Source of the DNA: a virus
Virus record (IMG/VR): IMGVR_UViG_3300025646_006748
Location: 1-20,325 of that record
Length of the DNA: 20,325 nucleotides
Reading direction: 5' to 3' (one strand)
The position numbers were made by a program, and so were the translations under genes. Positions 4,587-20,325 of the stretch are shown here, one piece after another. Each line of letters begins with the position of its first letter. Within the stretch, counting starts at the first letter, position 1. The notes under the pieces are model-generated. The model did not search any database. It was not told where the DNA came from and saw nothing but the letters and a program-made list of their open reading frames with translations.

Positions 4587-5584
4587 TAGGCAATACCTTC
4601 AACGAAGTTACCAAGCAGAATTGTTCCACTAGCTTGAACAAAGAACGGCACAATAGCTGGGAATGAAGTAGGAGCTGTATAAGACCCTCCTGGGAAGTCA
4701 AAGTGGCTACCAAACGAAGTAGGAGCAGCAGTGACTCGAATCAAACCAGCTGTACCAGCAGTTTGGTTGGTGGGGTTAGGGATAGCAATAGCACCGCACG
4801 TCCAGTAGTTACCAGTACTGAGATCGAAGTCACTTACCGTGATAGTACGTTCTGTGCTTGATTGAGTGGCAGTAAAGGATTGTGCAACGTCAGTCTTTGC
4901 TGTATCTGCGTCAAAGGCTTGGACATCAGTACCGATAGCAACACCAAGAGTGGTACGTTGTGCTGAAGCATCTGCATCATCAAGCAATGCACGTCCAGCT
5001 GCAGTACAAGTAATCTCTTCTACATCACCAGATCCTGCGCTACTACGACCAAGGAGTTTGTCAGTAGCTGAAACGTCTTGGATCTTTGCGTAGGTAACAG
5101 CCCCTGCAGCGATTTTGCCTTCAGTAACAGCCCCTGCAGCGATTTTGCCTTCAATAACAGCTCCGGTATCAATGGACCAAAGCGTACCGTTACCAGCAAC
5201 AACAATTTCTCCTTTATCACCGTCAGGAACACCAGCACCCTCTTGAACAGAGTCTTGATACTCTTGAAGGCCGTAGCGGATTTGGTTATCAGCGTTGTTA
5301 AGGTCTTGAGCTGTCAGCGTAGAACCTGCTGTGTAAACCACAGTTGGATCTGCGATTGATGTGATTCGTTGAAGGAAGACCTTAGCGTTACTTACAGCAC
5401 TGTTAAGAACAATTGCAGTTCCAGCGCTGTTAAAGGTGTAATCAGTTGTCAGAGTTTGTAAAACATCGTTTACATAAACTTTGATGTCTGATTGCCTGAT
5501 GTAAGGAATGGCGTTGCCATCACTATTCGTCAGAGCAAAAGTGGTACCAGATGCACTGGTATAGGTGATTGATGCAAATGCCAT
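4586..5584 (-). CDS. T7 gp17-like tail fibre protein, short, with N-terminal tail-attachment domain (332 aa)
   Basis: Residues 1 to about 112 match the pattern of the T7 tail-fibre N-terminal domain that anchors fibres to the tail: ITYTSASGTTFALT, DIKVYVNDVLQ, DYTFNSAGTAIVLN, VFLQRIT, and the LTAQDLNNADNQIRYGLQE helix. A linker at about 142-168 has tandem 10-residue repeats around EGKIAAGAVT, then ALLDDADASAQRTTLGVAIGT, a motif common in phage fibre shafts. The last 80 or so residues are beta-rich and may be a tip domain or an oligomerisation end. At 332 aa it is much shorter than T7 gp17 (553 aa), so it probably acts as an adaptor to which the downstream 804-aa or other fibre proteins attach. 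The start is set by a TAATG junction with gp16 and a strong GGAGGT 8 bases upstream. Confidence 0.88.
   Translation of the reverse strand: MAFASITYTSASGTTFALTNSDGNAIPYIRQSDIKVYVNDVLQTLTTDYTFNSAGTAIVLNSAVSNAKVFLQRITSIADPTVVYTAGSTLTAQDLNNADNQIRYGLQEYQDSVQEGAGVPDGDKGEIVVAGNGTLWSIDTGAVIEGKIAAGAVTEGKIAAGAVTYAKIQDVSATDKLLGRSSAGSGDVEEITCTAAGRALLDDADASAQRTTLGVAIGTDVQAFDADTAKTDVAQSFTATQSSTERTITVSDFDLSTGNYWTCGAIAIPNPTNQTAGTAGLIRVTAAPTSFGSHFDFPGGSYTAPTSFPAIVPFFVQASGTILLGNFVEGIA
5094..5153. repeat. Perfect 30-bp tandem duplication inside the fibre gene
   Basis: Bases 5094-5123 and 5124-5153 are identical 30-mers. The next bases (5154 on) begin a diverged third copy with a-for-g and tc-for-cc changes. 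In the protein this is an in-frame 10-residue repeat containing EGKIAAGAVT in the linker of the 332-aa fibre protein. Perfect identity suggests a recent slippage or duplication that could vary linker length. Confidence 0.95.
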
Positions 5585-8500
5585 TAGCGGGTACCTCCAG
5601 TTAAGCGGTTGTTGGTGATCATCTCTTTCATTTCAGCAGGCATTTTGTACCGCTGACCTTCGTTAGTGCCGTTGTAATACTGCTGTCTACCTAACTCAAA
5701 TAGCATTTTGATGTGGTTCGATAGTTTAATTTTACGAGGATTATTGTCTCGATCCCAATTTGGAGTTTCCCAGCCAAGCATTCCTCCAAATAGTCCCGAT
5801 ACTCCGCCACCAGATGGCATCAAAAATGGGCTATCAACTGAGGGAAGAGAAGCGTAGTCTTTTCTACTGATAAAGTCTTTAAGAGCACTGTGTATTCCTT
5901 TGTGTTGTTTACCAGATACTGGGTCTGTATATTCAAGTTCAGAATTCAAAAACCAATTGAAATAATTCAGCTGAGTTTCGTCCATACCAACGCCATCTTT
6001 ATGGAACATACTGGTTCTTGGGCCTTCTTGTAGGTTATGAACAATTTCCCTTTTAACAGGATCATCTTCCAATTTGTCAGGGAAAGCCCAATAACGACCC
6101 AGAACAGACTGAAGCATATACCACTGACCTGCGTGGTTAGCGCTTACTGTTTCTCCAGGTTTACCGTACCAAAGTGCCTTACGGGAGCTAGTTTCCGGTA
6201 AGTTTTTAGCTTTAGCGACAAGGATATCAATAATAGGTTTCAAAGGTTGGTATTCAGCTGTGTACCCAAAAGTATTTCCAAGGGTATCAAACGCCATATC
6301 AATAGTTCCTTCAAAAACATCTGCAAAGTCAAACTTACCTTTACCAGCTTTTCTTTGATAAAAACCTTTTTTTGTAAAACGGGTTGTGGGGCTAGCTGGT
6401 TTACTGGGATCAATCCCTTCAGCAATAACTTTACGCAAGTTGAGATAAGGGTCTCCAGCCCGAGCAAAGGCTCCGCTCAGCACTTTAGACACTTTGGCTG
6501 TATCATTTCGGCCCGCAGCACTAAGAGCTTCGATAGCTCTTTGAATACCAGCAACGCCTGGAGTATCCAAAATGTAATTAGCTAAAGCAGCCGTAGCCGC
6601 AGTAACTAGATTTTCATTACCCCTAGAAACTCCAAATTGATGCAAATCTCGAAGTGTTGCGTGAAGTGCAATGGTGTCGCCAAGTGGAGGGAAGTAGCGA
6701 TAAGGAAAGCGACGATCACCAACTTTCCAAGTAAACATATCTACTTGTCCCATGGTTGGTCGATAGCTATTTTCTAAACCGCCGGTAATATCTTGATTAC
6801 CATCTCGAACTAGGAAAAACGCTGCAAGCTGGAGGCCGGTTGCAAGAGCCAAAGCCCCTTGAGCTTTAATGCGAGTGTCAAAATCAGAACTGAAGTACTT
6901 ACTCTCAAATGATTTGATACTGTTTTTCATATTTGCTGGTAATACTTCTAGAACTTGATCTGGAAGATTTTTAAAGCCAACGCGAGCAACATCAACTCCA
7001 GCTTGGACGATTTCACCACCAGAGCTAATCATTACAACGTTTTTGATGGCATTTAAAGGAGATGTAACAATTCCAGCCATGTCGTTAGCAAAAGCTGAAA
7101 CCACAGGATTTGAGGAATACCGCCATTTATTGATGCCTTCAGCAACGTCAGCAAAACCGCCAGTTAGCTCAGCAGTCATATTGCTAGCCTGAATCAGCTC
7201 CATAAATTGGTTATCTAAAATTGAATAACCAATTGTTTGACTATCTAGCCCAACGGTTACAGGGCTATACATTTTGTTGAATTCTTTATCTAGGAGCTTA
7301 GTAATTTCTTGCTCTCGATCTGCAATGTTAAGAAGACCTGCGTTGATCTTTTCATCAACTTCTTCAATAGCTTTTGCGTGAACCCGTGCGTTAGCAAATA
7401 GAGCCGTAGTCATTTCATCTCCAGCAGCTGAAAGTTGGAAAGGAAGACTAAGATTCACGTATTCACCAGCTGGGTAATAGCTAGTTTTACCTAAACCAGC
7501 GCGTCGCAGTAGAGAGGTGCTAGGCCCAAGGAGGGCTTTAGAAAGAAGACTCCTGTACTGCCACCGCTCTCCTGCAATGAAGTAATCGTGAAAAACCTTA
7601 CCAAATACTCGTGAATTATTGATAAAGTCAAAAATTTTAGGATCTACATCTCCCCGTTCCAACGTGTAGTTAACAAATGGGAAAGTCACTTTATTAGCTT
7701 GTAGGTCGGCAAGAATCGCATCGTCACGCCTCAAGCTAGTACCACCAGGCATTTCAAAGGCCTTCTTCATAGCTTGACTGGGATCAGTGATGCTTCGCCC
7801 AAACACAAAAGATTTAAAGGCTTGATCTAAGGCCAAGCTGTAATAGTTTTTAAGTAACAGCAGCGTATCCGTTTCAAGCTTTGCTCTTTTAAAGCTTTGA
7901 GCAGCTGCTTGGGTTTGACCTAAGAATTTTGCCGTAGTTCCGTTCAAAGTTGCAGCAGTTAGTTGGCCCATAATTCGGGCGCTAATTGTACCAACGTTTT
8001 GAACTGGAATAGAGCCAATAGTTTGAGGAGCAGAGATCATACTTCCAGTCTGAATGCCACGAAGAATGGCAGGACCAGACAGTTTCAACTCACGAAGTCT
8101 GTCAATATTTCCTTCAGTTTGAACGACTTCATCAGCAAGCTTTTCAATTGCTGCAAGTTCTTGCTCAGCAAACGTTTCATTGTTCTCCGCTTTTTTGAGA
8201 AACTCTCCAAGTTGGTTATCGACCTCTTCCTTAGCTTCTCGTGCAGTTTTACTTGCAATTTCAGCAAAATCAACTGCATCGCCAAATCCGAGCAGTTTTT
8301 TGTTTGCGTAAGTCAGTAGTTCCTTTTTACTCTTAGCTGTAGAAACAAATTCAATTTGATTCTGCTTAGCAAAAGACCTAAGACCGTTACCAAAACCTTG
8401 GAACAGTACGTCCATTGTGCCAAGATTCTGCTTAAGCAAGGCAAAGTTTTTAGCCAAATTGCTCAGAGCTACAGCGCGGTCATTTGGAGTGCTATCAGGG

Positions 8501-11334
8501 TTATTAGAAATAATCCTGTATTCTCTAGACGATTTGAGCGCGTTTACACCGCTGTCCCGAAGCATAGCCGTAGGCGCTATGACTTTATTCAGGTTGTTGC
8601 TTACCTCTTTACCAAACTTTTCACTTTCAAGCAGCAAGCCAAACCGTTTGATATAAGAGTCACCACCTAAGGTATCTGCCAAATTGTCAAACGCAATTCG
8701 ATACTGATTTTTTAGGTAGTTTGGATCTCGAGCATCGAGAAACTCAACGCTAGCTTTAACTGCAGCCGCTTCACTAAGATCTGCTGTGTACTTCACAGCG
8801 TTAGTGTTAAATATTTTAGTTGTCTTTTTAGCCAGGTCTAGACCGTTATTTGGGTCTTCAGCGATAAGCTTGTTTTGACGATTAATTGTGTCTTCAACAC
8901 CTTTGACATACTCCTCAAGGGTTTCTTTAGTTTCAGCTGGATTTTGGTATTGATTTCGACCTTTATTGATGTCTTTGACGACTTCTGCGTTGGTTAATTG
9001 CGGTTCATCTCGGAGTACTTCATTAGAAGCCCTTTGAACTGCTTGCAAATCTGAATCAATAACAATCTCACCAGAGTCTGTTTTGGTAAGAGGGGCTTTA
9101 TTAACAACAGGCGTAGGAGCCTTAGGGCGAACCAACCCTGTAGTCAAAGGCAGTTCTAGTTGATTAAATTCTTCAATATCCCCAACAACAGGTGCCAAAC
9201 CACCGTTGTCGATGACCTTGTTATGAATCTCGTCAACACGAGCAATAAAAGCGTCTACAAACTCAGGATTAAAGTTGTCGGTTGCTACAGCAATTTCAGC
9301 TGAATTTAAAAGGTCTTTCAGTTCTCCGTAAGCCTGACCGAGATTATCTTTTAAGGTGTAATCGTAATCAATTTCATCCAAACGATTTTCGCTAAACAGC
9401 AGGCGGTTGCGAGCCTCTAAATAACCGATCCTTTGAGCGTTTAGCTGATCAAGAGCATCGACAAGAATACGAGCATCACTTAGTGAATTTCTAAACCCAA
9501 TAGAAGCTCCTTTTTCCCTGATCAAAGCGTTTTCAAGTTGTGCAACTCGAGCAGCCTTTTCAAGCGACAGATTCTCAACTGTTTGACGTTCAAGACGCAA
9601 AACATCAAAAGCATCCAACCGCTCAAGAGCTTGATTTACTAGGCGTACTTTTGTGCTGTTTTTACTGGCTCGTTTTCCAGTACCGGTTGATTTGTTGATC
9701 CAATTCGGATCTTTTGCAACTGCTTCGTCATAAGACGCTAGCCGTGCCTCAAGATCAGCCCGTTTTTTGATTAGCTGTTCTTCAGTTTTGATCCCTAGCT
9801 GCTGCTCTGCTTGAGCGACACGAGCATCAATGTCTGCCTTTTGAGCGGTAACATCTGGAAGCTCTTGAACAGATTTAGTTAAAGATTCAATTTCTGGGAT
9901 AATGCTTTGACGTGATTGAAGGTATGCTTCAGCTCCGGAACGAGAACTAAAAGTAATTTTGCCTACGTTTTCATCAATTTTGCGGTAAAGATCAAAGTTA
10001 ATTTCCCCCAGTTTTTCTTCAATATTTGAGTAGGCTTTTGCGATACCATCAGCTACAACTTCTGCTTGGGTTTCGGGAGTAGCCTCTTCAACGGCTTGTT
10101 TAAGTGCAGAGCTTAGGGGTACTCCAGCGCCTGCTTTATTGAAAAACCTGTTTGCAGCCCAGAAAGCCCCACGAAGGCCAGTCAAAGTAACTGCGCCCAT
10201 ACCAAGCTCTTTATATTGCTCATAGGCGTAATTAAAGGCGTCAGGCGATTCAGCCATCAAAGCTTGGACACGAGCAACGCGCTGTTCATTTGTTTCTAGT
10301 TTTTGAGCTTGGTCTAGTTTTGCTGCGTAAACTCCAGACGCTTCTGGACGAATCGCTATAGCACTGACCAAAGCATCAGGCAAAAGATCTTTAGCCAAGA
10401 ACGTTGCCCCAAGTTCAAGACCCTGTTTAATGTTTTCTGCTTTCCAAATATTCTGAAAATTAAGAGCAGTTTGACTAGCTTTAACGCCCAGGGACGGTGC
10501 TTGACTTAGGCTGCTAATGCCACGATCTAACAGCATCGCAGAAGCGACTGTAGAAGCAAACTGACCAACAGCAGTCTGTGGTTTAACGTATTGTTTTACA
10601 TACTCACTGTCGTCGCTAAAAATAGGACCAACAATTGGGGTAGATGGTTTAATACCGTATTTGAAACCCTCAACATCTCGACCGGTCTTTTGAAGGGTTT
10701 CAATAGCTGCTTCAGCGTTTTTAAATCGTTGTTCAACTAAATCGGGATTAGTTTCTGTCATAGCGCTGACATCACCACCACTGGCAAGAGCGGCACCAAG
10801 ATCAACACCTTGAGTAACAGCTCCAATCTGCTCACCAGCTGCTACTAAAGAGTTAAGAGCCTGTCGAGGGGCGTCTTTAAGAACACGAGCCGATTCCTGC
10901 CCAATTGTTGTTTGTGTTCCTGGAATTTTAGTTTTACCAAGACCTGAGGCAGACTGAGCTGCAGCTACTACCGGGGCAAAAGGACCAGCCAAAAACGTCA
11001 GACCAGCGCCTTGTACTGCTTGTTTTAGCTGTTTCTTAATATCTTCAGCAGCACCTTGAGCTGCACCAAATACTTGTTGGCCTACTCCTTGAGCAGCGCC
11101 TAGCGCCTGTTGCCGAAGGAACTGACCAACATCAAAATTACGAGCAGACTGGCGTTTGTTCTTTGTTTTAGTGGTAGTTTTTGGGGCTGGCTTAGGAGCT
11201 GGCTTAGAAGCCGCTTGAGGGGCTGCTTGGGGTTTAGCGGTAGTTGATTCCCATTCTTGCTTATACCGTTGATCAGCTTGCTGAGGATCCTCAATAAAAA
11301 CAGATTGACCGTTACGAAGAGGGATATAAGGCAT
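5584..11334 (-). CDS. Very large internal virion protein, gp16-like (1916 aa)
   Basis: Assigned to T7 gp16 by its place after the gp15-like gene and before the gp17-like gene and by size, not by a clear sequence match. T7 gp16 is 1318 aa; this is about 600 residues longer. The first 30 residues precede a Pro/Ala/Lys/Thr-rich linker (about 32-62). An Ala/Gly-rich apolar stretch follows (about 108-130, with GLTFLAGPFAPVVAAAQ). Long helical, charged, coiled-coil-like stretches occupy much of 430-720. A second apolar stretch (LALATGLQLAAFFLV, about 1495-1510) leads into an aromatic-rich region with WKVGDRRFPYRYFPPLGD (about 1537-1554). I see no convincing lysozyme or transglycosylase motif at the N-terminus. 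In T7, gp14-15-16 form the DNA-ejection channel across the envelope; the two apolar stretches fit membrane contact. The start at 11334 is fixed by two in-frame TAG codons just upstream, but has no SD nearby. Confidence 0.85.
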   Translation of the reverse strand: MPYIPLRNGQSVFIEDPQQADQRYKQEWESTTAKPQAAPQAASKPAPKPAPKTTTKTKNKRQSARNFDVGQFLRQQALGAAQGVGQQVFGAAQGAAEDIKKQLKQAVQGAGLTFLAGPFAPVVAAAQSASGLGKTKIPGTQTTIGQESARVLKDAPRQALNSLVAAGEQIGAVTQGVDLGAALASGGDVSAMTETNPDLVEQRFKNAEAAIETLQKTGRDVEGFKYGIKPSTPIVGPIFSDDSEYVKQYVKPQTAVGQFASTVASAMLLDRGISSLSQAPSLGVKASQTALNFQNIWKAENIKQGLELGATFLAKDLLPDALVSAIAIRPEASGVYAAKLDQAQKLETNEQRVARVQALMAESPDAFNYAYEQYKELGMGAVTLTGLRGAFWAANRFFNKAGAGVPLSSALKQAVEEATPETQAEVVADGIAKAYSNIEEKLGEINFDLYRKIDENVGKITFSSRSGAEAYLQSRQSIIPEIESLTKSVQELPDVTAQKADIDARVAQAEQQLGIKTEEQLIKKRADLEARLASYDEAVAKDPNWINKSTGTGKRASKNSTKVRLVNQALERLDAFDVLRLERQTVENLSLEKAARVAQLENALIREKGASIGFRNSLSDARILVDALDQLNAQRIGYLEARNRLLFSENRLDEIDYDYTLKDNLGQAYGELKDLLNSAEIAVATDNFNPEFVDAFIARVDEIHNKVIDNGGLAPVVGDIEEFNQLELPLTTGLVRPKAPTPVVNKAPLTKTDSGEIVIDSDLQAVQRASNEVLRDEPQLTNAEVVKDINKGRNQYQNPAETKETLEEYVKGVEDTINRQNKLIAEDPNNGLDLAKKTTKIFNTNAVKYTADLSEAAAVKASVEFLDARDPNYLKNQYRIAFDNLADTLGGDSYIKRFGLLLESEKFGKEVSNNLNKVIAPTAMLRDSGVNALKSSREYRIISNNPDSTPNDRAVALSNLAKNFALLKQNLGTMDVLFQGFGNGLRSFAKQNQIEFVSTAKSKKELLTYANKKLLGFGDAVDFAEIASKTAREAKEEVDNQLGEFLKKAENNETFAEQELAAIEKLADEVVQTEGNIDRLRELKLSGPAILRGIQTGSMISAPQTIGSIPVQNVGTISARIMGQLTAATLNGTTAKFLGQTQAAAQSFKRAKLETDTLLLLKNYYSLALDQAFKSFVFGRSITDPSQAMKKAFEMPGGTSLRRDDAILADLQANKVTFPFVNYTLERGDVDPKIFDFINNSRVFGKVFHDYFIAGERWQYRSLLSKALLGPSTSLLRRAGLGKTSYYPAGEYVNLSLPFQLSAAGDEMTTALFANARVHAKAIEEVDEKINAGLLNIADREQEITKLLDKEFNKMYSPVTVGLDSQTIGYSILDNQFMELIQASNMTAELTGGFADVAEGINKWRYSSNPVVSAFANDMAGIVTSPLNAIKNVVMISSGGEIVQAGVDVARVGFKNLPDQVLEVLPANMKNSIKSFESKYFSSDFDTRIKAQGALALATGLQLAAFFLVRDGNQDITGGLENSYRPTMGQVDMFTWKVGDRRFPYRYFPPLGDTIALHATLRDLHQFGVSRGNENLVTAATAALANYILDTPGVAGIQRAIEALSAAGRNDTAKVSKVLSGAFARAGDPYLNLRKVIAEGIDPSKPASPTTRFTKKGFYQRKAGKGKFDFADVFEGTIDMAFDTLGNTFGYTAEYQPLKPIIDILVAKAKNLPETSSRKALWYGKPGETVSANHAGQWYMLQSVLGRYWAFPDKLEDDPVKREIVHNLQEGPRTSMFHKDGVGMDETQLNYFNWFLNSELEYTDPVSGKQHKGIHSALKDFISRKDYASLPSVDSPFLMPSGGGVSGLFGGMLGWETPNWDRDNNPRKIKLSNHIKMLFELGRQQYYNGTNEGQRYKMPAEMKEMITNNRLTGGTR

Positions 11335-11369
11335 TTGGAGGAAAAGCTACTAAGGGCGCTTCCTCCAAA
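11334..11369 (-). promoter_or_regulatory. Inverted repeat overlapping the gp16 start: buried GGAGG, CCTCC next to ATG
   Basis: On the minus strand, arm TTTGGAGGAA (11369-11360) is perfectly complementary to arm TTCCTCCAAA (11343-11334) across a 16-base loop. The last A of the second arm is the A of the gp16 ATG. A good SD (GGAGG) is thus 27 bases from the start and paired, while the usual SD position holds its complement. It is likely an RNA hairpin governing gp16 translation or mRNA processing. It lacks a T-tract, so it is not an intrinsic terminator. Confidence 0.7.
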
Positions 11370-11392
11370 ATACCGGATATATCTAGAAATTG
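11335..11392. other. 58-base gap between gp15 and gp16 genes
   Basis: This is the only gap among the internal virion genes; the others overlap by one base. Apart from the inverted repeat in its lower half, it holds an AT-rich stretch on the minus strand (TTTCTAGATATATCC, about 11375-11389) in which I can see no defined promoter. Confidence 0.6.
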
Positions 11393-14116
11393 CTATTTGC
11401 GGCGGAACATTGGAACCAAATTCAACTGAATGAACCTAGCTTGAACAGACTGGTCCTCGTATTGAAATTCTTGAGTAGGTCTACCAGGACCTGGCTTATA
11501 GAGTTGAAAATGGACGTGACCGGGGTCTCCAGCGCCTGTACCCGAGTAGCCAGGGTTTGAGTTAAACGGGGAGTCATCTCCACTTTTACCTACAGGCCTC
11601 CCCTTACTGATGACGTCACCTTCTTTCCAATAAAGGCGCGCCAAATGAGAAATTCGGAGACGATCCCGTTTGTTGTAACCAGGGCCACCGTTACTTGCCT
11701 CAATAATCACTGACAAACCGAAGCCTCCATCCATACCAGCAAAAATCACCTTACCGCTTATGGGAGAAGGGACGTTATTTGCTAGTTGATTGTTCTGTCG
11801 TACAAGGGTGACATCAATAGCTCGGTTTTTACTGTGGCTGTGGTGGGGGTTTGTAATTTTAAGAGCGACATCACTTGGCATTGGACCAGTGACTGCTACA
11901 GCTGGCTGCGTTATAGCTTGAAGGTTTTTTGAGATTTTTTGAATGTTGGGGGGAAGATTCTTATTGCCAAAGAAAGTTTTGATCTGCCGTTCAACAAGCT
12001 CAGAAATAGGGATCTGCCCTTTAAAAGCTAGCGTATTCAGATTCTGTAGCGAAGCTCTAGTTGCGTTACTAACGCTTTGAGGGTTGTCTGTAATTGCAGC
12101 GTTAACCAGTTCTCCCATTTCTGTTTGATTAAAGAAAAGTTGAGAATCCAATGCGGCACGGGCTAGTTTTGGGTTGTTACCAAACGTACTAGACGCTCTC
12201 AAAGACCAAGCTGCTCTGTTGTCAGTGTCTCTAAAACCAAAGACCCAACGACCACTGGTATCCTTTTTAGAGCCGGTTATAGGCGTTTTATTAAACTTGC
12301 CTGGCTCAAGGTTGTAGTAATAATCAACATCGTTGTACTCAGGTCTTGTAAAGAACGACCTTTCAGCATCAATCAGCAGCTGCCTTTGAAACTGAGGATC
12401 AGTAATATCTTTTCCTGCAGCTCGAGCTTCATTCAGTTTTCGAGAGAAATAACTAGTGGCCTCGTCTTGAAGCAACCGACCAGCTTCTGTAATAGCTTGC
12501 TTTAAAAGTTTGTCTTTTTGAGATCTAACACCAGCTTCATCAGTGGCCATTTCTTTGATTTGAGGATCTTGTAAAAATTGACCCCTCAAACCTTCTTTAA
12601 GATCTTTAATCAAATCAGCTCGAGTTTTATTAAACGCAGTGCGGTCTGCTGCGTTATCTTTGCTTTTTGCTTCATTGATCATCTTCAAAAGATCAGGATA
12701 AATATCTGATCCCTTTGCCTCTTCCCTGACATTTGCAGGAAGCTCAAAAATTTGATTATCAATAGCAGCCTGAGTTAAATCAATCAATTCTTGCTTTCGT
12801 TCTGGTGTCAACAGCTTTTGAGACAGCTTGTAATTTTTTCGAATTTCATCGACGAAATCCTGATAAGGAATTCCCAATTGCTTTGCTTTTATTGCAGCGT
12901 TTGCTTCCTCCCTGTTAATCTGCTGAATAATTGCATTATCATCTGCATTTGGATTTTGAATCCACCAATCAGTTGCTGTAGTTTGAATCGTTCTAAAAGC
13001 TTGCCGTTTTTGACGTTGGAGTCCGCGCTCAATAGAACCCTCTCGCAGTTCATCACGTTTAGTAGCTCGATCAGCAGCAGCTTGAATAACCTCTCCAAGA
13101 GGACGGTTTTTACTATCACGTAAATCAGTCAGCTTCACGCCGTTAACATCAATCTGACTGAGAACTCCGATCAAATCTGATGCGCTATAAGCGTGACCAA
13201 TATCACTCAAACCATTGCCATCAGCGTCCAAAAGAAGAACGTTTTTGTCGAAAAGCTCAGCAAAAGCGTCAGTAGCTTGTTGACCTGAGTAATTGTTTTT
13301 GTTGATTAACCAATCACGATATTCTTCAATACCCTTTTTAATAGCATCAGCGTTGTAGGTTGTATAGCCGGTTGCTGCACTAAACGATGCTCCTAGCTTC
13401 CAGGCTCCTTTAAGTTTCTCACCAGCAGTCTGCCGAGTAATTCGATCGTTTAGTTCAAAAGCTTTGTTATCTAAATCTCGTTTGAGATCAAATAAAGTGG
13501 CACTAAGTGGTGGATCAATTTTTGCGGCTTGGTATGCCTCAGGAATATCTGAATACTCTGCTTTTAGCTCTTGAGCTTTTGCAGCTAAGATCGCAGCTCT
13601 TTGATCAACTGGAAGTTCTGCAAGATTGTCAGCTGCTTGTTTGCCCCAAGAAGCGAGGTTTACAGCAATCTGATTTCCAGCGTTAGTAGCCTTGGCGTCG
13701 TAATAGTAGAAATTAGTCCAAGGGTTGCTCAGTTGATTTTGACGAGCTAATTCAAATTCGCCTTTCTTTTTAAGCTGTTCAGTTTCGCTAGCGTTTTGAA
13801 TTAAGTCTTTATAAGCTGTAGCTTCAGAAGCGAGGATGCGTTCTGCTTGTTGCCTCTTCTCTGCTTTGTAGTTTTCAAATAAAAGTGTTGAACCTCGCTC
13901 AAAAACACCGCCTTGAGCTAAAAAGTTTTCAATGTTTTTAATGCCCTGTTCTGCTGCAGTATCCCGCTGAAAACTAGCGGCATACATCAACTGACCTCCT
14001 ACTTGCTGAGGGATCGCTGAGGGTTGTGCAGGAGCTGGAAGAGCAGCAGGTTTTTCTGGTTGAGCTACCAGATCTCGAATCTGGCGTTGAGGCGTAATAC
14101 CAAAGCTGCTAGTCAT
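11393..14116 (-). CDS. Internal virion protein, gp15-like, with C-terminal M23-type peptidase domain (907 aa)
   Basis: Position between the gp14-like and gp16-like genes and size (T7 gp15 is 747 aa) indicate an ejected internal core protein. Residues 15-40 are Pro/Ala-rich; about 50-740 is mostly helical and charged. Residues about 744-880 look like an M23 (lysostaphin/LytM) metallopeptidase: HHSHSKNRAIDV gives His759/His761 and Asp768, then PSPISGKVIFAG (783-794), the GGFGLSVIIE strand, LRISHL, GDVISKGRPVGKSGD, and the HVH pair at 867-869. His, Asp and HxH are the zinc-binding set of that family. It would cut peptide cross-links of peptidoglycan during DNA entry, a job T7 gives to a transglycosylase in gp16. 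A DADGNGLSD loop at 297-305 resembles a calcium-binding loop. The start is a TAATG junction with GAGGAG 8 bases upstream. Confidence 0.87.
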   Translation of the reverse strand: MTSSFGITPQRQIRDLVAQPEKPAALPAPAQPSAIPQQVGGQLMYAASFQRDTAAEQGIKNIENFLAQGGVFERGSTLLFENYKAEKRQQAERILASEATAYKDLIQNASETEQLKKKGEFELARQNQLSNPWTNFYYYDAKATNAGNQIAVNLASWGKQAADNLAELPVDQRAAILAAKAQELKAEYSDIPEAYQAAKIDPPLSATLFDLKRDLDNKAFELNDRITRQTAGEKLKGAWKLGASFSAATGYTTYNADAIKKGIEEYRDWLINKNNYSGQQATDAFAELFDKNVLLLDADGNGLSDIGHAYSASDLIGVLSQIDVNGVKLTDLRDSKNRPLGEVIQAAADRATKRDELREGSIERGLQRQKRQAFRTIQTTATDWWIQNPNADDNAIIQQINREEANAAIKAKQLGIPYQDFVDEIRKNYKLSQKLLTPERKQELIDLTQAAIDNQIFELPANVREEAKGSDIYPDLLKMINEAKSKDNAADRTAFNKTRADLIKDLKEGLRGQFLQDPQIKEMATDEAGVRSQKDKLLKQAITEAGRLLQDEATSYFSRKLNEARAAGKDITDPQFQRQLLIDAERSFFTRPEYNDVDYYYNLEPGKFNKTPITGSKKDTSGRWVFGFRDTDNRAAWSLRASSTFGNNPKLARAALDSQLFFNQTEMGELVNAAITDNPQSVSNATRASLQNLNTLAFKGQIPISELVERQIKTFFGNKNLPPNIQKISKNLQAITQPAVAVTGPMPSDVALKITNPHHSHSKNRAIDVTLVRQNNQLANNVPSPISGKVIFAGMDGGFGLSVIIEASNGGPGYNKRDRLRISHLARLYWKEGDVISKGRPVGKSGDDSPFNSNPGYSGTGAGDPGHVHFQLYKPGPGRPTQEFQYEDQSVQARFIQLNLVPMFRRK

Positions 14117-18769: not shown

Positions 18770-18838
18770 TATCGCAACAAAAAGGGGGAAACATTTCTGC
18801 TTCCCCCATTGTATTGGTAATTAGCTAATAGCTATTTA
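18770..18838. other. Intergenic region between capsid and gp11 genes
   Basis: These 69 bases hold the terminator at 18779-18807 and, before it, two adjacent AT-rich palindromes on the capsid side: aatagctatt (18827-18836) and ttagctaa (18821-18828), which share two bases. I cannot identify a promoter motif. Confidence 0.6.
18779..18807 (-). terminator. Intrinsic terminator after the major capsid gene
   Basis: On the minus strand, GGGGGAAGCA, a GAAA tetraloop, then TGTTTCCCCC form a 10-bp stem (one G-T wobble) at 18807-18784, followed by TTTTT at 18783-18779. This is a textbook Rho-independent terminator. It lies 31 bases after the capsid stop, where T7 has T-phi downstream of gene 10. Leaky termination there would raise capsid mRNA over tail gene mRNA. 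Confidence 0.93.
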
Positions 18839-20251: not shown

Positions 20252-20325
20252 CGTTAGTTAGTAGGTAGGAATGTTTAACGCGCTCGCTTCGCACTGTTGT
20301 TATCGCCTCAGCGGCAACAATGTTT
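20252..20325. other. Leader region upstream of the capsid gene (window edge)
   Basis: These 74 bases precede the capsid start on the minus strand. They hold a hairpin (20297-20320) and no clear SD. One minus-strand frame is open from the window edge to a TGA at 20246-20244, just inside the capsid gene. It could be the tail of an upstream gene such as a scaffold protein, but 26 codons are too few to decide. Confidence 0.4.
20297..20320 (-). promoter_or_regulatory. Hairpin in the capsid leader
   Basis: Minus-strand bases 20320-20297 fold as TTGTTGCCGC, loop TGAG, GCGATAACAA: 9 pairs (one G-T) with one C-A mismatch. No T-run follows on either strand, so it is unlikely to be a terminator. An mRNA-stabilising or RNase III-processed hairpin, as known upstream of T7 structural genes, is possible. 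Confidence 0.4.

Follow-up and report, generated by a model that had tools for sequence, protein, structure and literature searches.

In a sequence from a cyanophage-like virus (the window, 20,325 nt; IMG/VR record IMGVR_UViG_3300025646_006748), the hairpin over the start of the giant gp16-like gene is real but is not the conserved object. Judged from alignment with relatives, the conserved object is a 33-nt element, TTTCTAGATATATCCGGTATTTTGGAGGAAGCG (11357..11389, minus strand), that contains the left arm of the hairpin. Our preferred reading, to which we give a little less than an even chance, is that the element serves the host RNA polymerase as an internal promoter and also encodes the 5' arm of the hairpin, and that the hairpin blocks the gp16-like start on read-through RNA.

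The window's genes are on the minus strand, in the order capsid (20251-18839), tail tube A, tail tube B, a 298-aa protein, a 907-aa protein, a 1916-aa protein and fibre proteins. The names gp15-like and gp16-like are positional. The gp15-like gene (907 aa, 11393..14116, minus strand, stop codon at 11395-11393) encodes a C-terminal Peptidase_M23 domain (Pfam PF01551, E 4e-7; 11393-11800). The gp16-like gene, for the giant internal protein of 1916 aa (5584..11334, minus strand), starts with ATG at 11334-11332. Its protein had no match in PHROGs or Pfam, and its sole tblastn match was a 1912-aa protein of Prochlorococcus phage P-RSP2 (25% identity). P-RSP2, which is in culture on Prochlorococcus MIT9302, is the nearest sequenced phage; its tail tube B is about 76-79% identical to that of the window, and its gp15- and gp16-like proteins are just about 25-27% identical. 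The N-terminus MPY is common to P-RSP2 and the relatives, which supports the ATG at 11334-11332 as the true gp16-like start. In the P-RSP2 record (L005:10480-10780), the annotated gp15-like gene ends 241 nt 5' of gp16. L073 and L135, which are close to P-RSP2, have an intact gp15-like frame of 925-929 aa ending in TAATG; the short P-RSP2 gene is likely due to a frameshift or a sequencing error in the record.

Relatives were gathered with tail tube B and gp15-like alignments, giving more than 100 loci, and the junction was also surveyed by an unbiased walk from tail tube B. A pattern scan then yielded 26 distinct junction sequences from one clade of P-RSP2-like podoviruses. In all 26 the left arm lay inside an element of about 33 nt with the consensus TTTCTAGTTATATCCATTAGTTTGGAGGAAGCG, located 18-22 nt before the ATG. 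In all contigs of this clade whose junction was resolved, the element is present, in a gap of 50-59 nt between the two genes; a gap of 35 nt called at first in L022 came from an in-frame upstream TTG taken as the start. Invariance was judged on 19 representatives. The last 13 nt of the element were identical in 19/19, and the T and A of a TANNNT hexamer were likewise fixed. The flanking gp15-like proteins are just 33-56% identical among the clade, yet the element is kept; it is therefore under strong constraint. In TTG GAG GAA GCG even the wobble positions show no variation, which places the constraint on nucleotides. An overlapping small ORF or stop read-through was rejected, as the frame is broken by early TAG or TAA in L115, L024 and L035. 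In other groups (P-RSP2 type, L093, L071/L079/L080 and L083) the two genes overlap or nearly touch, and the element is absent. A scan of sequenced phages for the element gave no match beyond chance. Each genome has one copy at the junction; a multi-copy promoter family was rejected, since neither this element nor its counterpart after the capsid gene (described below) has close extra copies in near-complete relatives. Four short contigs (L157, L161, L168 and L190) have an end no more than about 65 nt from the junction element, seemingly more than expected; perhaps assemblies break there on strain variation of the spacer or on the inverted repeat.

The hairpin in the window is formed by a perfect 10-bp inverted repeat on the minus strand, in which TTTGGAGGAA (11369-11360), inside the element, pairs with TTCCTCCAAA (11343-11334) across a loop of 16 nt. 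The right arm ends at its 3' end on the A of the ATG, as the earlier note had described. The minimum free energy of 11325-11372 was -17.1 kcal/mol (z -3.4), and 0 of 200 dinucleotide shuffles folded equally well. A wider fold of 141 nt (z -3.0) lengthened the stem by GATATA/TATATC and GGTAT/ATGCC and buried the start codon; GATATA (11378..11383, minus strand) forms the outer left arm and TATATC (11328-11323), in the gp16-like coding start, the outer right arm. RNA folding, as proposed in that note, supports a covered start. Counting perfect inverted repeats with arms of 10 bp or more and loops of 3-30 nt, we found four in the whole window, compared with 0.4 ± 0.6 in 20 shuffles; perfect 10-bp repeats are rare but not unique here. 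The repeat at the gp16-like start is the only one of the four outside large coding genes, and it sits at a gene start. The other three (551-600, 7205-7234 and 10661-10703) are all within coding regions. No T run follows the stem at 11334-11369, and it does not qualify as an intrinsic terminator. An Rfam search gave no family match up to E = 5. Searches of IMG/VR for the exact hairpin gave matches of which 11 of 12 were chance matches without a gene start, and 25 matches to the exact hairpin or element in prokaryote genomes were about the chance number; the exact hairpin as a widespread motif was rejected on these counts.

Two further observations of the earlier note held at this start. No ordinary Shine–Dalgarno (SD) sequence was found before the gp16-like ATG in the window, and the gp16-like start is without the TAATG that occurs at the starts of tail tube B, gp14, gp15, the 332-aa gene and the 804-aa gene. 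The capsid and tail tube A starts also have no SD, so its absence at the gp16-like start is not special.

Alignment of the junction in relatives, also proposed in the note, showed that most relatives retain some hairpin at the gp16-like start, with the left arm fixed and the right arm changing. The spacer of 18-22 nt between element and ATG varies, and it pairs with different parts of the element. The register GGAGGAAG(C) is used by the window lineage, L031/L064, L034/L063, L109 and L154. L115 and L100 use AGCAATTTCTAGTT, their spacer being a perfect 14-nt reverse complement (14 bp); the L024 spacer pairs with CAGTAGTT, and that of L038 with CATTAGT. The CCTCC/GGAGG pairing is therefore one lineage's version and not a conserved feature. 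With each of 11 lineages represented by its worst member, spacer–element pairing exceeded that of shuffled spacers (Fisher p 2e-6, an optimistic value because lineages share ancestry). A helix beyond shuffles (p<0.07) was found in about 8 of the 11, in differing registers. L035 and L158 have little pairing and no significant hairpin; they too are without an SD, so the case that the earlier note named as refuting its reading, relatives with the repeat lost and an ordinary SD, was not found. Pairing does not explain the conservation of GGAGG, 23-27 nt from the ATG, since it is invariant also where it is looped out (L115 and L024) or unpaired.

In the main rival reading, the element would be a promoter or another protein-binding DNA site, with the inverted repeats as by-products of template switching or chance that play no role in translation. 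A left arm kept irrespective of pairing, registers that differ by lineage and the two relatives without a significant hairpin all suit such an origin, as does the L115 right arm, which repeats the upstream box perfectly in inverted form, the product expected of template switching. Against it, most of the 11 lineages show more pairing than expected, and in every case the right arm is at the ATG. We consider this rival doubtful.

A second copy of the signal lies in the gap between the capsid and tail tube A genes. This gap carries TTCTAGTTAATTACCAATACAATGGGGGAAGC, followed by a terminator hairpin and a T run, and the junction element resembles its TACAATGGGGGAAGC within the same genomes. The copy (18802..18830, minus strand), recognised by its likeness to the junction element, consists of the box TATTAGCTA, TACAAT and GGGGGA. 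The corresponding box at the junction is TTCTAGATA (11380..11388, minus strand; clade consensus TTCTAGTTA). The terminator-like hairpin GGGGGAAGCAGAAATGTTTCCCCC with its T run (18779..18807, minus strand) has a left arm that overlaps the putative discriminator and start, and the GC-rich stem and T run of an intrinsic terminator are present at 18784-18807. In the surrounding region (18770-18838, minus strand) the hairpin is kept in relatives together with the upstream TTCTAGTTAATTACCAATACAAT, and partly in P-RSP2; P-RSP2 has the capsid-site copy and no junction copy, and in the L115 genome another, plain terminator takes its place after the capsid gene. Local alignment of the junction element with the capsid gap of the same genome gave p<=8e-4 in 5 of 6 genomes and p 0.15 in L035. 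The two sites resembled each other more within a genome than between genomes (p 0.007, n=6). Both sites fit TANNNT, six purines and AG, and a scan of the six genomes for TANNNT-R6-AG with at least three G in R6 found only these two sites, the motif having been derived from the same sites. Elsewhere in the window, an inverted repeat TTGTTGCCGC...GCGATAACAACA lies 5' of the capsid gene (20260-20325, minus strand); it is also present in G001 and G002.

The shared pattern plausibly represents a promoter of the -10/discriminator type, in which TANNNT is followed by a G-rich block at -6 to -4. At the junction the putative -10 hexamer is TATTTT (11367..11372, minus strand; TA[GT]TTT in the clade), with TANNNT fixed at both sites. 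The invariant GGAGGA (11361..11366, minus strand) would be the discriminator, from -6 to -1. The predicted transcription start is the A at 11360 (minus strand), a purine 7 nt past the hexamer; the matching position at the capsid site is 18801 (minus strand). GGG at -6 to -4 gave long-lived open complexes in several studies, with output that was not uniformly higher (PMC10911233). The hexamers TATTTT and TAGTTT match TATAAT at just 3-4 of 6 positions. A standard sigma-70 scan called neither site; no -35 hexamer was present, and no -10/-35 pair at 16-18 nt was found. A T7-type RNA polymerase (PF00940) was absent from P-RSP2 and eight relatives, with Syn5 positive as control, and a T7-type promoter was rejected for this reason. 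As no such polymerase was found in these nine phages, the host enzyme presumably transcribes the late genes. Start-site maps for the P-RSP2-like phage group were sought in the literature, and none were found.

A promoter nested in the blocking arm would work as follows. The host RNA polymerase would recognise TANNNT and GGAGGA and start at the A of AGCG, and a phage or host factor possibly reads the TTCTAGTTA box. The promoter DNA would double as the 5' arm of the hairpin, and the 3' arm abuts the gp16-like ATG. Read-through RNA from the upstream structural operon would carry the two arms and fold, so that the start codon is hidden. RNA begun at the internal promoter would be without the 5' arm and leave the start exposed, and the giant protein would be made from its own transcript. 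At the capsid site, the terminator hairpin would stop read-through RNA, and new RNA without the left arm would pass. The predicted cost of opening the start is raised in the longer RNA of most lineages. Removing the RNA 5' of the predicted +1 lowered this cost in 22 of 24 junctions, for the window from 15.5 to 2.2 kcal/mol. The drop was larger than with shuffled spacers (Fisher p 1e-7, again optimistic given shared ancestry). For the capsid-site terminator hairpin, the predicted energy went from -23.0 to -0.4 kcal/mol in RNA from the predicted start, in which the hairpin is lost. The model is limited in that the window-type hairpin requires a start 3' of GGAGG, and L035 and L158 count against it, having no meaningful hairpin; L035 also fails the two-site similarity test.

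Such a design is known from phage T4. In gene e, and also in soc, gene 49 and I-TevI, late promoters lie in the DNA of the 5' arm of an inhibitory hairpin; for gene e, translation is poor from read-through RNA and good from late RNA (PMC3014915). The junction resembles gene e in that the start is helix-covered in read-through RNA, the 5' arm is encoded by promoter-like DNA and the truncated RNA is predicted to be open. By analogy with the T4 lysozyme gene, the hairpin probably shuts the gp16-like start only on messages entering from upstream. A gene e-like design explains why the left arm is fixed, why the right arm is free and why the register changes. The differences are that no T4 late promoter (TATAAATA) is present here, the putative promoter being of the -10/discriminator type, and that the gene encodes a giant internal virion protein of a T7-like podovirus, with a pairing register that shifts among relatives.

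T4 genes 38 and 25 suggest another role for GGAGG. Their split ribosome-binding sites have spacings of 22 and 27 nt (PMC3014915), and an intervening hairpin at the junction could likewise bring the invariant GGAGG, 23-27 nt off, near the ATG. The spacing fits, and a small AAGC/GCTT helix lies between the two in the window and several relatives. However, unlike in genes 38 and 25, the SD-like sequence takes part in pairing in most lineages, and exposing it costs 7-14 kcal/mol in 9 of 12 representatives, so that it is not free. The intervening hairpins are weak (0 to -3.9) or, in L038, missing, and the similar G-rich block at the capsid/tail tube A gap cannot act as an SD there. We regard a split site as unlikely.

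The stem-loop might also mark a place between the gp15 and gp16 messages where RNA is processed or protected, either cut by RNase III or RNase E or stabilising a 5' or 3' end. Nothing specific spoke for RNase III cutting, nor for the suggestion of the earlier note that the hairpin brings an upstream ribosome to the start. An AU-rich stretch followed by a stem-loop occurs at both sites, and the stem is long in the window lineage. Stem length and register are not conserved, the sequence is kept where no stem forms and Rfam offered no match, which makes processing a less likely explanation, one we hold to be improbable.

The reading of the earlier note is less likely too and the one we least expect to be right. 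In it there is a single message, on which the hairpin hides both a real SD and the start and keeps gp16 low until a factor or ribosome opens it. The window hairpin is indeed very stable and could hold translation low by covering the start. A role via an SD is not supported, for the SD-like arm lies 5' of the anti-SD-like arm and too far from the ATG, and the hairpins of L115, L024 and L038 do not use GGAGG.

Returning to the nested promoter, the capsid site invites comparison with T7, which has the Tphi terminator after its capsid gene, and with the late promoters of the T7 family. In LUZ100, as in T7, a terminator is reported directly behind the capsid gene (PMC10134795). The shared features are a terminator-like hairpin 3' of the capsid gene and a putative transcript start that is G-rich; unlike in T7, a T7-type RNA polymerase was not found here and the element recurs before the gp16-like gene. 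None of the papers we found explains how the proportions of late proteins are set in T7-like phages that have no RNA polymerase of their own. A signal present twice, once behind the capsid gene and once ahead of the gene for the giant internal protein, offers a concrete and testable explanation. As a tentative generalisation, which we think possible but rather doubtful, a group of T7-like podoviruses without their own RNA polymerase may split the late operon with a two-copy promoter-plus-hairpin module. Read-through RNA would be terminated after the capsid gene or start-blocked before the giant gene, module-started RNA would escape, and, with the promoter fixed, the 3' arm would have evolved anew in three or more pairing registers. 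If true, the gene e trick of a promoter in the blocking arm would have an independent origin here, with a pairing arm free to evolve while the promoter stays the same.

A separate hairpin was observed at the primase-helicase gene of relatives. This gene lies directly 3' of a hairpin, CCTCCAGGGG...TTGGAGG followed by TCTTTTTATG, at about 31.57-31.63 kb in G001 (L140:11500-11633) and about 11.77-11.83 kb in G002 (reverse-complement orientation). An SD-like GGAGG is in its right arm, and from its sequence it looks like a terminator or an SD-blocking hairpin.
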